DNA from: Alphaproteobacteria bacterium
Lineage (GTDB): Bacteria; Pseudomonadota; Alphaproteobacteria; UBA8366; Aestuariispiraceae
Reading direction: 5' to 3'
DNA length: 64,000 bases
NCBI GenBank assembly: GCA_030065235.1
Contig: JASJDC010000008.1
Location: forward strand, 62,001 to 126,000
A program made the translations under genes and the position numbers. Under the pieces are notes generated by a model. The model had not been told where the DNA came from. It made no database searches and saw only the letters and a list, made by a program, of their open reading frames with translations. This document shows positions 56,734 to 64,000 of this stretch, one piece after another; the first letter of the stretch is position 1; the number at the start of each line of letters is the position of its first letter.

Positions 56734-58646
<1,913 letters not shown>

Positions 58647-58667
58647 CTATTGACCATTTACTGGGAA

Positions 58668-58690
58668 GAATCATGAGTCATCGGCGATTC
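58668..58690. promoter_or_regulatory. Cluster of three GANTC sites upstream of ccrM
   Basis: GAATC (58668-58672), GAGTC (58675-58679) and GATTC (58686-58690) occur within 23 bases, 46-68 bases upstream of the ccrM start and within its AT-rich promoter region (58623-58797). GANTC is the target of CcrM itself. In Caulobacter the ccrM promoter also carries such sites and is turned off by full methylation. Confidence 0.65.
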
Positions 58691-58797
58691 CAGGTCAATA
58701 CTCAGCAATTCTTCTGGGATGAGTATTATAGATATACGCGATATATTGGGGCGTGACTTGTGGGAGGCGCTATATCTCGCATCGAGCGGCGACTTGA

Positions 58798-59406
58798 TTA
58801 AGCGAGCAGCGCCCGGATCGGCGCGAAAGAGCGGCGGTGATGGGGCGTGACGCCCAGCGCGGCGAGCGCCTGACGATGCGCCTTGACGCCATAGCCGGCG
58901 TTGCGCTCCCAGCCATAGCCCGGGTAGGTCTCGGCCAAGCGGGCCATCTGGCGGTCCCGCGTGACTTTGGCGATGATCGAGGCGGCTGCGATCGACAGTG
59001 ACATGCCGTCGCCCTTGACGATGCATTGGGTCGGCAAGCCGAGACCGGGGTCGCGGTTTCCGTCGACCAGCGCCGCGTCCGGCGGGTTCGGCAGAGCCTG
59101 CACGGCGCGCCGCATCGCCAAGAGCGAGGCTTGCAGGATGTTCAGACTGTCGATTTCCGCCACGCTGGCCTCGGCGATCGCATATTCCACCGTACTGATC
59201 AGCAGGGCATAAAGTCGGTCGCGCTTCGCCGCGGTCAGGCGTTTGGAATCGTCTAAGGCGTTCGCCAGATCGTCGGGAAAACGGGTCCGATCGATCACCA
59301 CGGCGCAGGCGGTCACCGGTCCGGCCCAGGGTCCGCGGCCGACCTCATCAAGCCCCGCTACCCGGCCGCCAGGGCGTAGCGCCGTCTCCAACGAGAAATC
59401 CGGCAT
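58798..59406 (-). CDS. rnhB: Ribonuclease HII
   Basis: Removes ribonucleotides and RNA primers from RNA-DNA hybrids. The 202-residue protein has the catalytic [15 protein letters not shown] (Asp-Glu), [22 protein letters not shown] (Asp) and [12 protein letters not shown], and ends with [15 protein letters not shown]. It is the last gene of a run with the antiporter upstream (gap 11 bases). The 175-base space below it belongs to the ccrM promoter. Confidence 0.96.
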
Positions 59407-59417
59407 CGGCGCGCGGC

Positions 59418-60986
59418 CTATTCTCCGGGCGCCGGTTTCGGCCGCCGCCGGTTCCAGAACCGGCTTGGCTGTTTCATTGGCGCGTCCGTTTGTTCAGATA
59501 AGCCCGCATCGGATTCTGTCCCCATGGCGGCGTCCGGCGCACTGTTTGGCGCACTGTCTGGCGCAGTGTTCGGGGCGGCGGCTTGGTCCGCGCCGGGCGC
59601 AGCGGTCAATCCGCTCTGCGCCGCCTTTTTCGCGCGCTCCGTCGCCTCGGCGTGCAATCGGCGCGCCTCGATCCGGGCGCGGGTCGATAGTTTCACATCG
59701 CGAAGCGCCAATTCCAGGCGTTCGACAATATCCAGCGAGACCAACCAGAACCATAGGCTGGTCGTCTTGGTGAAACGCCATTCCTCGAAATAGGAAAGCC
59801 GCAGGATCTTCTGCAAGGTCCCTGCGTGGCGCAGCGAACGATGCGACAGACGCCGCGCCAGATCGACCATCAGCGGGCTGGTCATCAGGGACAGAACCGT
59901 CACCGAGACCAACATGCGATGCACGTCCTGATCGATCACCCGCACATCGGCGGCGGCGGCGGCCAGCACGAAGGTGAATTCGCCCAGCTGTCCCAGCACC
60001 AGACTGGCGAGAAAGGCGTTCTGCATCGTCTCGCCCTGGGCCCGCAGCAGAATGACGTTCAGCGCGGTCTTGAACACCGCGACAAAGGCCCAGATCGCCA
60101 GCACGATCCAGATATGCTCCCAGAGATATTCCAGATTGATCAGCAGGCCGATCGACAGGAAAAACACCATCAACAGGACCGCCTGAATCGGTTCTGCGTT
60201 TTCATGCATCACCTGGCGCTGGCCGCTATTGCCGACGATCAACCCGGCCAGGAAGGCGCCGAAGGCGGGCGACATGCCCAACACGCCGGCCAGGGTCGCA
60301 ATCCCGAAACAGATGGTCAGCGAGCCGATCGCGCTCAATTCCGGCTTGCTCTCGAAAATCTGGTGAAAGGGAATATCGATGCGTTGGCGGCGCGTCAGAA
60401 CATAGATCACCCCGATCAGAATCCCGATTGAGAGCGCGATTTCGACCAGCACGAAGGGGTTGAAGCCGCCGCCCGCGGTCGAGGCGACAATGATCAGCAT
60501 CGGCGCGACGGCCAGATCTTGCGCGATCAGTATGCCGATGGCGACGCGGCCGGCGCGATGCCGCAACTCGCCGATATCGTTCAGGATCTTCACCGCCACC
60601 GCCGTCGAAGACAGCGCCAACGAGAATCCGAACAGCACCGCATGTTCCGGCGGCCAGTCGAACCCGCGCGCGACCAGGAAGGTCACGCCCAGACTGGCGC
60701 CGATCTGAACTGCGGTCGTTATCACCGCGATCCGCCAGATCTGGCGGAAACTGCGCAGGGACAGTTCCATGCCGATGAAATAAAGCAGCAGGATCACGCC
60801 AAGCTCGGCCAGCAAGGCGACCGCTTCGCGATCCCGCACCAGTTCGAAGCCCGACGGGCCCAGGATGACGCCGGCCAGGATATAGCCGACGATCGCCGGC
60901 TGGCGCAGGCGCACGAAGATCAGCCCGCCCACCGTCGCGGCCACGGCGACGATGGCGATGCCGGTCAGTTCGGTGACGTCATGCAT
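59418..60986 (-). CDS. CPA2-type cation:proton antiporter (Kef-like)
   Basis: Inner-membrane monovalent cation/proton antiporter of 522 residues with 12-13 helices. It has [56 protein letters not shown] and [19 protein letters not shown], typical of CPA2 (Na_H_Exchanger). No RCK/TrkA-N domain follows. Instead there is a cytoplasmic tail of about 150 residues, ending in an Ala/Pro-rich repeat-like stretch ([17 protein letters not shown]) and a basic end. It lies 11 bases before rnhB. K+ or Na+ preference cannot be told. Confidence 0.9.
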
Positions 60987-61100
60987 GCTCTATCCCAAAC
61001 GCCCGTTGCTTGGAATGCATTAGGGGCCTCTGAACGAGCATAGGGCGCGTCGGCCCGAGATCAAAAACCCTGACCGGTCAAAACGCCGAGATAGGGTGTG

Positions 61101-62342
61101 CTAGAATAGGGCCAATTGCCGCGCCCGGGCCGGATCGGCGAAACGCGAACAGTCGAGCGGGCCGGGATCGCGCCGCACCGCGCCCCGGTCTTCAAGTCCC
61201 CGGTCGTCCAACCCATGCCACGCCAGTGCCTTCTTGAAACGCTGGGCGATCAGATCGGCGACCGGACCTTCGCCGCGCATACGCTTTCCCCATTCCGCGC
61301 TATAGAGGCGCCCGCCGCGCGTCTGCTGGATCAGAGACAGCACCCGCGCCGCCCGATCCGGCGTATGCTGCACCAGCCATTCGGTGAACAGGTCCTTGAT
61401 TTCCAGCGGCAGCCGCAGCAGCACATAGCCGACCGTATAGGCGCCGGCTTCCGCCGAGGCCGCCACGATGCGCTCGATCTCCGCATCGTTCAGGCCGGGG
61501 ATGATTGGCGCGGCCATGACGCCGGTCGGCACGCCGGCCTGGGACAGGGTCCGGACCGCCGCCAATCGTTTGTCCGGGGTCGCCGCGCGCGGCTCCAGCT
61601 TGTTCGCCAATTTCCGGTCGAGCGTCGTCACCGACAGATAGACCCGCGCCATCCTTCGGTCGGCCATCGGCGCGAGTATGTCCAGATCGCGCGTGACCAG
61701 GGCGGATTTGGTGACGATGGTGAAGGGATGGTTGAATTCCGACAGCACCGCGAGAATGCGGCGCGTCAGTTCCTGATCCTTCTCGATCGGCTGATAGGGG
61801 TCGGTGTTGGTCCCCAGCGCGATGGGCTTGGGCTTGTAGCCGGGCCGCGACAATTCCCGCCGCAAGAGCGCCGGCGCGTCCGGCTTGTGAAACAGCTTGG
61901 TCTCGAAATCGAGCCCCGGCGACAGCCCGTAATAGGCGTGGGTCGGGCGCGCGAAACAATAGACGCAGCCATGCTCGCAGCCGCGATAGGGATTGATCGA
62001 ACGGTCGAACGGAATGTCCGGCGAGGTGTTGCGCGCGATCACCGTCCGCGCGCTGTCCACGCCCAGGACCGTGCGCAGCTTCGGCGGCCCCTCCTCCGCC
62101 GCGATGTCGAGCCCGTCCGCATCCGCACTCTCGCCGTCGGCTTCCGGCGCCGCCGCGCCGCGCCGCGCCGGGGAGATTTGCTTGGCCGGCATCGGCGGTT
62201 CATGCACGCCCCAGCCGTCATCCGCCAAGACCCGCCGATGCCGCTCAAACCGCCCCGCCCGATTGCTCGCCGCCCCCCGCCCCTTCACAGCGGCGATATT
62301 AAGCGGGTCGGCGTCCAGGCTAATGTTCGGCTCCTGTTCCAT
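61101..62342 (-). CDS. PA0069-family radical SAM protein
   Basis: Radical SAM enzyme of 413 residues. A basic, disordered start leads to the iron-sulfur motif YRGCEHGCVYCFARPTHAYYG (C-x3-C-x2-C). TNTDPYQPIE, IVTKSALVTRDLDIL, a Gly-rich PIIPGLND and a C-terminal domain with GRLYSAEWGKRMRG follow. The family (COG1533, PA0069/Rv2578c) is related to spore photoproduct lyase-like proteins, but its reaction is unknown. ATG 62342 is preferred to the ATG at 62384, because the LexA box and -10/-35 elements lie between them. SOS control supports a DNA repair role. Confidence 0.9.
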   Translation of the reverse strand: MEQEPNISLDADPLNIAAVKGRGAASNRAGRFERHRRVLADDGWGVHEPPMPAKQISPARRGAAAPEADGESADADGLDIAAEEGPPKLRTVLGVDSARTVIARNTSPDIPFDRSINPYRGCEHGCVYCFARPTHAYYGLSPGLDFETKLFHKPDAPALLRRELSRPGYKPKPIALGTNTDPYQPIEKDQELTRRILAVLSEFNHPFTIVTKSALVTRDLDILAPMADRRMARVYLSVTTLDRKLANKLEPRAATPDKRLAAVRTLSQAGVPTGVMAAPIIPGLNDAEIERIVAASAEAGAYTVGYVLLRLPLEIKDLFTEWLVQHTPDRAARVLSLIQQTRGGRLYSAEWGKRMRGEGPVADLIAQRFKKALAWHGLDDRGLEDRGAVRRDPGPLDCSRFADPARARQLALF

Positions 62343-62348
62343 TTCAGA

Positions 62349-62377
62349 AAAATAGAACATAAAGAGAACATTTGCAA
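62349..62377 (-). promoter_or_regulatory. SOS promoter with alphaproteobacterial LexA box in its spacer
   Basis: Reading the minus strand: TTGCAA (-35, 62377-62372), then a 17-base spacer containing GTTC-N7-GTTC (62369-62355), then TATTTT (-10, 62354-62349). GTTC-N7-GTTC is the known LexA site of alphaproteobacteria. The radical SAM start codon ATG (62342) follows the -10 by only 6 bases, so the transcript should be leaderless or nearly so. Confidence 0.72.
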
Positions 62378-62384
62378 GCGCCAA

Positions 62385-62625
62385 ACAGCTAGAACCACGC
62401 CATCCTCCTGCCGATCGAAACCATCACCGAGGTGACGCCGGCGGCGTTGCCCGATATGGTTCAGCTTCCGGGGGAGTGAGGGAGCGGACATCAGGCCGTG
62501 AAAGATGAAGCGAAAGACGTGCAGCAATGCCTGTGTTTGATTCGCCGACCTGACGGCCGCAAACGTCCCATTCGGCTGCGACAGTTCACCCGTGTAAAGA
62601 AATTGAAGCAGTATCAATGTAGGCC
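62385..62625. other. Divergent spacer with a possible CheW-like gene remnant
   Basis: No intact gene. From 62402 a plus-strand frame reads ILLPIETITEVTPAALPDM and stops at 62477-62479, a short stretch like the beginning of a CheW-like domain. A stop lies in frame just upstream, so at most 25 codons remain. The rest becomes AT-richer toward the DUF2927 gene, whose promoter must lie here. Confidence 0.3.
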
Positions 62626-63456
62626 ATGACAATAGGACAGTATTTCAAGAGCCGATGGTCGTGCGTTCATCATCCAAGGGCGGTACTTTTCGCATTGGTC
62701 GGGCTGCTCGTATGCGGCTTTCACATCGATGTCTCCGCAAGTGAGCCGGCCGCTGACGACAGCTTCACCAAACAGGAATTGATAGAGCATTTCATTGGGA
62801 CTGCTTTTGGGGCGGAGTATTTTGAATCGTTTTCCGACGATGCGGACGCAGGAACTCTTAAGCGTTGGGAGAAGCCGTTGCGCGTTCTCACAATAGCCTC
62901 ACAAGAAGACGGTAAGGTTCTATTCGAAAAGCTTAATGAAATATCGAAACTAACTGGAGTTCAGTGGCGCCCTATCGGCCTAGAGTCTCCAGAGACTTTC
63001 AACTATTTAGTGGCAATTGCGGATCGCAACGAGTTGAGAGAGGTTCTTACAGGACTTGCCAAGAGACGCCAACATGTTCGGCAGTTCGTAGATCTTATCT
63101 TCAAAGGCTTCTACGAAAAAGCTCGCTTTATTTGTTTAGGTTGGGTGGAATTCAATCAGAAAACGGAACTATACTTTGCGTTTGTGTTGGTGGAAAGCCC
63201 GGCCCCGTCGGGACTGCCGGGCCCTGTGGTGAGCGTTGCTGATTGTTTGGAAGAAGAATTGGCTCAAAGCATGGGCTTGGCCAATGACTTCCCGAATAAG
63301 CCCGGAACGGTGTTTTCCGACGATCCTTTGCAGGTTCAAAGGCAATTGACAGAAATCGACAAGGCGGCCTTGCGGCTTCTGTATCATCCCAAACTTCAAG
63401 CGGGCATGACTGAGTCGGAGGTCCGACGCACGCTTGATAGGATATTGGAGGATTGA
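62626..63456 (+). CDS. DUF2927 domain protein, exported
   Basis: A 276-residue protein with an N-terminal hydrophobic signal or anchor (AVLFALVGLLVCGFHIDVSA, residues 19-38). The mature domain starts SFTKQELIEHFIGTAFGAEY, continues LKRWEKPLRVLTIAS, and ends with the DUF2927 hallmark CLEEELAQSMGLANDFPN, SVFSDDP-like sequence, KAALRLLYHPKLQAGMTESE. Function of the family is unknown. The gene is AT-richer than its left neighbours and has weak ribosome site TAGG, suggesting an accessory or transferred origin. Confidence 0.8.
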   Translation: MTIGQYFKSRWSCVHHPRAVLFALVGLLVCGFHIDVSASEPAADDSFTKQELIEHFIGTAFGAEYFESFSDDADAGTLKRWEKPLRVLTIASQEDGKVLFEKLNEISKLTGVQWRPIGLESPETFNYLVAIADRNELREVLTGLAKRRQHVRQFVDLIFKGFYEKARFICLGWVEFNQKTELYFAFVLVESPAPSGLPGPVVSVADCLEEELAQSMGLANDFPNKPGTVFSDDPLQVQRQLTEIDKAALRLLYHPKLQAGMTESEVRRTLDRILED

Positions 63457-63535
63457 GGTCGGCGATTGCGATCCACGCGGGGTCGGGAATGCTATAATCA
63501 GAGGTGTCAATCCTCATCGAATCGGTATCAGCGGT

Positions 63536-64000
63536 CTAGGACACCGGCTGGGGACCGTCGCTGGCCTCCAAAAGCCCCATGCTCTTCTTGAGCTGTTCAA
63601 CGATCTCTTCGGCGCCGCTTTCAAAAATCGAGCGCCATGCTCCAATCGTATAGGCCCCGCCAGCGTAGATAGTGTTCGTTGTCTCAATGGTGGCGACCGG
63701 CGCCTTATCGGGTGTTTGAATGTCACTGCTGACTTTCAGTATCGTAGAGCCCGCGCCGGGCAAGAGCCAACGGGCGAACGCGTTGCCGGGCTCATATTCA
63801 TTGATCGTTGGGTTGATGGCGTAGCCAGCGTCGTCGCCGGTCGCCAACAGCCCTTCTTCCGTCAACTGTTCTGTCAAAGCCGCTTCCATTGACACCGGGA
63901 TATCCAGCGATTCCTCGTCCTGCGAGAAAACAAAGCCGGAATTGTCCGTGACGTCGCCGACCACGAACTTGGCGTCGATGGGGATGGAATTGCGGTCTTT
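63536..64000 (-). CDS. DUF4410-like protein, partial
   Basis: C-terminal part of a protein whose frame runs off the right edge; the 12 codons before the GTG at 63964 (KDRNSIPIDAKF) are open and in frame, so the true start lies outside. Visible features: NEYEPGNAFARWLLPGAGST, KVSSDIQTPDKAPVATIETT, YAGGAYTIGAWRSIFESGAEEIVEQLKKSM. This arrangement matches the DUF4410 family of predicted lipoproteins or periplasmic proteins. It converges on the DUF2927 gene. Function unknown. Confidence 0.7.
   Translation of the reverse strand, partial: KDRNSIPIDAKFVVGDVTDNSGFVFSQDEESLDIPVSMEAALTEQLTEEGLLATGDDAGYAINPTINEYEPGNAFARWLLPGAGSTILKVSSDIQTPDKAPVATIETTNTIYAGGAYTIGAWRSIFESGAEEIVEQLKKSMGLLEASDGPQPVS

Follow-up and report, generated by a model that had tools for sequence, protein, structure and literature searches.

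How is a radical SAM gene controlled whose promoter encloses a LexA box, and what does such control say about the reaction of its product? The question is raised by a gene on the minus strand of the window (the whole 64,000-nucleotide stretch of DNA that we analysed) encoding a member of the PA0069 family, whose enzymes are widespread in Pseudomonadota (above cut-off in 111 of 299 sampled genomes, more than one third) and have no assigned reaction. The preliminary description of this DNA had placed the protein in that family, and profile searches leave little doubt of it, as the whole protein matches NF033668 over its full length (493 bits, E 3.5e-148, against a cut-off of 360), an NCBIfam model of the type hypoth_equivalog. 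The next-best family, the Rv2578c-family radical SAM proteins (NF038135), reaches 227 bits, well under its 430-bit cut-off. The CxxxCxxC cluster motif (C122, C126 and C129 in the 413-aa numbering) is invariant in 71 of 71 family sequences. The features of the locus are the following:

62372-62377, minus strand: -35 element TTGCAA (sequence; its TTG is conserved in orthologues)
62355-62369, minus strand: LexA box GTTCTCTTTATGTTC, GTTC-N7-GTTC, in the 17-nt promoter spacer (sequence, genome rarity, orthologue conservation)
62349-62354, minus strand: -10 element TATTTT, spanning -12 to -7 when the ATG's A is counted as +1 (sequence, orthologue geometry)
62340-62342, minus strand: ATG start codon, its A (62342) being the predicted transcription start, from a geometry conserved in 52 orthologues
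62325-62339, minus strand: second perfect LexA box GAACAGGAGCCGAAC, in reverse orientation, directly 3' of the ATG (sequence scan, nearest relative)
61101-62342, minus strand: PA0069-family radical SAM protein, 413 aa (NF033668, Pfam Radical_SAM), single copy in the genome
59418-60986, minus strand: CPA2-type cation/proton antiporter, the downstream neighbour (profile matches)
58798-59406, minus strand: rnhB, ribonuclease HII, a downstream gene at 41 of the 84 orthologous loci
57525-58622, minus strand: ccrM-like adenine methylase, a downstream gene at 18 or more orthologous loci

The LexA boxes and their rarity in the genome

Read on the minus strand from 62377 to 62340, the DNA is TTGCAA AT GTTCTCTTTATGTTC TATTTT TCTGAA ATG, with 17 nt between the -35 and -10 elements and six bases between the -10 and the ATG. 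Direct reading thus agrees to the base with the promoter anatomy and the coordinates given in the preliminary description. The two hexamers are weak, with no more than 8 of their 12 bases agreeing with the consensus, and for this reason a generic promoter scan with a 9/12 threshold missed the window promoter and found nothing; the significance of the elements therefore rests on their conservation. An Rfam search of positions 60900-64000 returned no RNA element.

The second box, absent from the preliminary description, follows the ATG directly, and the centres of the two boxes are 30 bp (about three turns) apart. The nearest relative (L032/L113) carries GAACATATAGCGAAC in the same place, though the half-sites there enclose different encoded residues, and its upstream box has lost one matching base. 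One might guess that LexA binds the two boxes cooperatively, an arrangement shared by two lineages only.

The bare GTTC-N7-GTTC motif occurs four times in the window (2.0 expected) and 137 times in the genome, compared to 130 for the reversed pattern, and alone is no evidence of a LexA site. We therefore relied on conservation and on the strict alphaproteobacterial motif GTTCYNNNWWTGTTC, which has five sites in the 4.18-Mb genome and none for either of two reversed-motif controls. The five sites lie at the radical SAM gene, lexA, recA, a PNPOx-family gene and one unassigned place. The genome encodes a LexA with Peptidase_S24 and LexA_DNA_bind domains (L012) and a RecA (L144), with boxes before both, and the 80 bp upstream of lexA hold three GTTC-N7-GTTC sites (G000:C1:394875-394953). 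The box GTTCTTTTTATGTTC (L145, G000:C18:261845-261859) precedes the PNPOx-family (PF01243) gene, which has an SD-like GGAG and is a possible candidate for a new SOS gene of the source genome. At the fourth strict site, GTTCTTATTTTGTTC (L143, G000:C12:234477-234491), no recognisable gene adjoins, and the neighbouring ORFs tested matched no Pfam family.

Downstream of the radical SAM gene (57525-60986, minus strand) the order is antiporter, rnhB and ccrM. Since the latter two genes are often found downstream, the putative SOS gene adjoins functions in ribonucleotide repair and GANTC methylation. Upstream lies a divergent DUF2927 gene (62626-63456, plus strand), in place of which at least 16 orthologous loci have an unrelated, divergent gene for a TIGR04283-like glycosyltransferase. 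PADLOC reported no defence family.

Conservation of the operator and the predicted fold of the enzyme

Orthologous loci were taken from named genomes (80) and from relatives of the window's genome (30) and reduced to 84 non-redundant loci (<92% identity), in which the box was sought within 330 bp. A perfect GTTC-N7-GTTC lies upstream of the gene in 71 of the 84, with gene-strand orientation in 70 of these, a count that, like the geometry statistics below, comes from phylogenetically related and not from independent loci. Other half-site spacings occurred in 0 to 4 of the same 84 loci and shuffled sequences gave a mean of 0.57 (maximum 3), while ten of the 13 orthologues lacking a perfect box retain a site with one mismatch. 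Along with the genome specificity of the strict motif, this deep conservation upholds the earlier reading of GTTC-N7-GTTC as the alphaproteobacterial LexA site.

We then extended the comparison to the phylum with 40 further genomes, 20 from alphaproteobacteria and 20 from other groups. GTTC-N7-GTTC precedes the PA0069-family gene in 18 of the 20 alphaproteobacterial genomes, and CTGT-N8-ACAG, which we take to be the LexA box of the E. coli type, precedes it in 14 of the 20 others; none of the 40 has the perfect box of the other group. Judged from these motifs, LexA control of the gene is kept while the LexA motif itself changed between classes, and such retention is strong evidence for a role in DNA damage. 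Since most relatives keep the switch, the gene very probably belongs, as an unstudied member, to the core of the DNA-damage response.

To relate the enzyme to known folds we used a structure model (mean pLDDT 82.7, core above 90) that includes two extra N-terminal residues, S-E. Its best match is spore photoproduct lyase (SPL; PDB 4FHC-4FHG) with Z scores of 18.8-19.3 over 260-274 residues (rmsd 3.2-3.8), followed by SkfB and NifB (Z 14.6-14.5). A sequence search of the PDB up to E 10 gave no SPL match, and its sole hit was the maturase SkfB, partial, with E 0.0017. Besides the fold, SPL and the PA0069 family share CxxxCxxC and a tyrosine immediately preceding the third cluster cysteine, which is present in 71 of 71 sequences. 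SPL employs a cysteine as hydrogen donor, C141 in B. subtilis (C140 Gt), and Y99/Y97 (B. subtilis) in radical transfer (PMC3742179, PMC5368176), while one clostridial SPL has its cysteine elsewhere, at C74 (PMC3742179). By contrast, the PA0069 family has no conserved hydrogen-donor cysteine: beyond the three cluster cysteines no cysteine is conserved in the 71 sequences, the next column (near the C-terminus) holding it in 22, and the residue after the third cluster cysteine, where SPL has Tyr, is Phe in 63 and Tyr in 8. The suggestion in the preliminary description that the protein resembles photoproduct lyases therefore holds for the modelled fold (Z 19 versus 14.6) but not for the cysteine hydrogen donor. 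With this defining catalytic feature missing, SPL's reaction is not to be assumed and the enzyme is not to be called an SPL, although the model suggests that it may resemble SPL in binding a lesion and in starting with a 5'-dA radical.

The same data bear on whether the putatively SOS-induced enzyme is a DNA repairer at all, as its task could instead be to modify some RNA, nucleotide or protein on which recovery depends. Lipoyl synthase, viperin, TYW1, RlmN and RiPP maturases have the same barrel (Z 13-14.6), and both the missing hydrogen-donor cysteine and the partial match to a maturase point in this direction; on the other hand, SPL leads the structural matches with a margin of over 4 Z units and a longer alignment (260-274 residues), and LexA control is retained though the LexA motif differs between classes. 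On balance we regard a substrate other than DNA as rather unlikely, and a DNA substrate as fairly probable.

The predicted transcription start and the shifting operator

The preliminary description had proposed a leaderless mRNA because the ATG follows the -10 so closely. The distance from the end of the box to the ATG in the orthologues falls into two main classes, 11-15 nt (16 loci, including the window) and 23-25 nt (36 loci). In the first geometry the -35 and -10 flank the box, and in the second the N7 of the box, typically TTGATTT, provides the -35. Among culturable relatives, Thalassospira represents the first geometry, and Bradyrhizobium and Parvibaculum the second. The two operator positions are about 10 bp (one helical turn) apart, and the spacing between -10 and ATG is unchanged. 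A TTG at a spacer of 15-19 from the -10 was found in 13 of the 16 first-geometry and 33 of the 36 second-geometry orthologues, and 81% of the second-geometry loci have C at -1. In addition, a third arrangement was seen (L046, L074, L098, L102 and L103), in which the box is followed directly by TTGAC (the -35), so that the operator abuts the promoter on its upstream side; these loci have long leaders, and some of them two or three boxes.

In 32 of the 52 short-spacing orthologues TANNNT begins exactly 12 bases before the ATG, against a background of 1.6% per position; the start codons had been picked by their distance from the box, and the -10 played no part in the choice. A -10 element is expected at this location when the first transcribed base is the A of the ATG. 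Of the 52, 4 contain SD-like 4-mers, about the level of shuffles. Fifteen orthologues with a box and a long leader behave differently, with TANNNT at -12 in none of the 15 and SD sequences in 12 (Fisher p 1e-7). In the window gene TATTTT spans -12 to -7 and the ATG is preceded by no SD-like pairing, and its nearest relative (L113) reads TTTACA-17-TATAAA-TCCTTG-ATG. Thus, leaderless transcription of the radical SAM gene, as originally suggested, is strongly supported by the fixed geometry and the lack of Shine-Dalgarno sequences across the 52 orthologues.

The gene might nevertheless be SOS-controlled yet transcribed with a leader from another promoter and translated from an in-frame ATG inside the box (62360) or a TTG at 62384, in which case the leaderless promoter would be coincidental. 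Judged by the window sequence alone, these upstream starts make a longer protein possible, and the long leaders with Shine-Dalgarno sequences in the 15 orthologues, as well as the weak hexamers of the window promoter, fit such an arrangement. It conflicts with the fixed position of the -10 relative to the ATG and the missing SD before the start; moreover, an in-box start would be upstream of the conserved -10, and the N-terminus of the nearest relative starts at the same ATG (MEQ/MEH). We consider a leader of this kind improbable. A box that matches by chance and plays no part in regulation would be compatible with the frequency of the bare motif in the genome (about that of the reversed control), but is barely credible given a box in 71 of 84 orthologues versus 0.57 in shuffles and a strict motif common to lexA and recA. 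Conversely, LexA control and a leaderless start can together be assigned to the radical SAM gene with high confidence.

In the mechanism that we infer, a LexA dimer on GTTC-N7-GTTC between -35 and -10 would bar RNA polymerase from the promoter, perhaps assisted by the second box just inside the gene. Upon DNA damage, RecA-stimulated cleavage of LexA would free the promoter and transcription would begin at the A of the ATG, yielding a leaderless mRNA for the PA0069-family radical SAM enzyme. This enzyme, with its predicted SPL fold, would most likely have damaged nucleic acid as its substrate and use a 5'-deoxyadenosyl-radical chemistry that dispenses with SPL's cysteine hydrogen donor. More broadly, and only tentatively as a whole, we propose that PA0069-family proteins are core SOS enzymes throughout Pseudomonadota and directly reverse a DNA lesion by non-SPL radical SAM chemistry, without a cysteine hydrogen donor, and that in alphaproteobacteria the gene's leaderless promoter stayed fixed while the LexA operator moved by one helical turn, into the spacer or the -35. 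The promoter would then illustrate how an operator can shift around a leaderless promoter that remains in place, and a leaderless SOS transcript raises the question whether such a message is favoured when damage disturbs translation.

Comparison with known SOS genes

Our literature search found no paper joining 'PA0069' with 'LexA', nor 'Rv2578c' with 'LexA'. A study of the LexA regulon of P. aeruginosa reportedly included PA0069 itself. GTTCN7GTTC is the LexA motif of Caulobacter (PMC12700426), and 171 leaderless TSSs, all AUG, are known from S. meliloti (PMC3616915). Both features come together in Caulobacter CCNA_01391, an early mitomycin-induced SOS gene with the LexA box GTTCttgttatGTTC (PMC12700426); mapping of its TSS showed a leaderless start, and a 'CtrA motif TTAT-N7-TCAA' is reported at -32 (PMC4287350). 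Should this TTAT be the one in the LexA box, the end of the box would lie 24 nt before the start, as in the second geometry. CCNA_01391 is thus like the window gene in its LexA box and leaderless start; its product is not named in these two papers, and a search with its DNA pattern over 385 genomes of the class gave two matches, neither of them a PA0069 gene. By analogy it may serve as a precedent for the architecture, not as proof for the PA0069 family.

SOS-linked radical SAM genes have been described in Streptomyces (PMC9380542), Bacteroidetes (PMC8565304), and Gram-positives and Balneolaeota (PMC7739468). Closest to the present case, LexA sites before 'splB', a gene annotated as a spore photoproduct lyase homologue, were predicted in alpha- and beta-Proteobacteria in 2012 (PMC3323433), and this 'splB' very likely belongs to the same family as the PA0069-type gene. 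In view of that prediction and of the other SOS-linked radical SAM genes, membership in the regulon was to be expected. What the present analysis adds is the predicted leaderless promoter, the shifting operator and the missing cysteine: the accessible part of PMC3323433 gives regulon membership, and it describes neither a leaderless start, nor an operator within the promoter spacer, nor the missing SPL cysteine.
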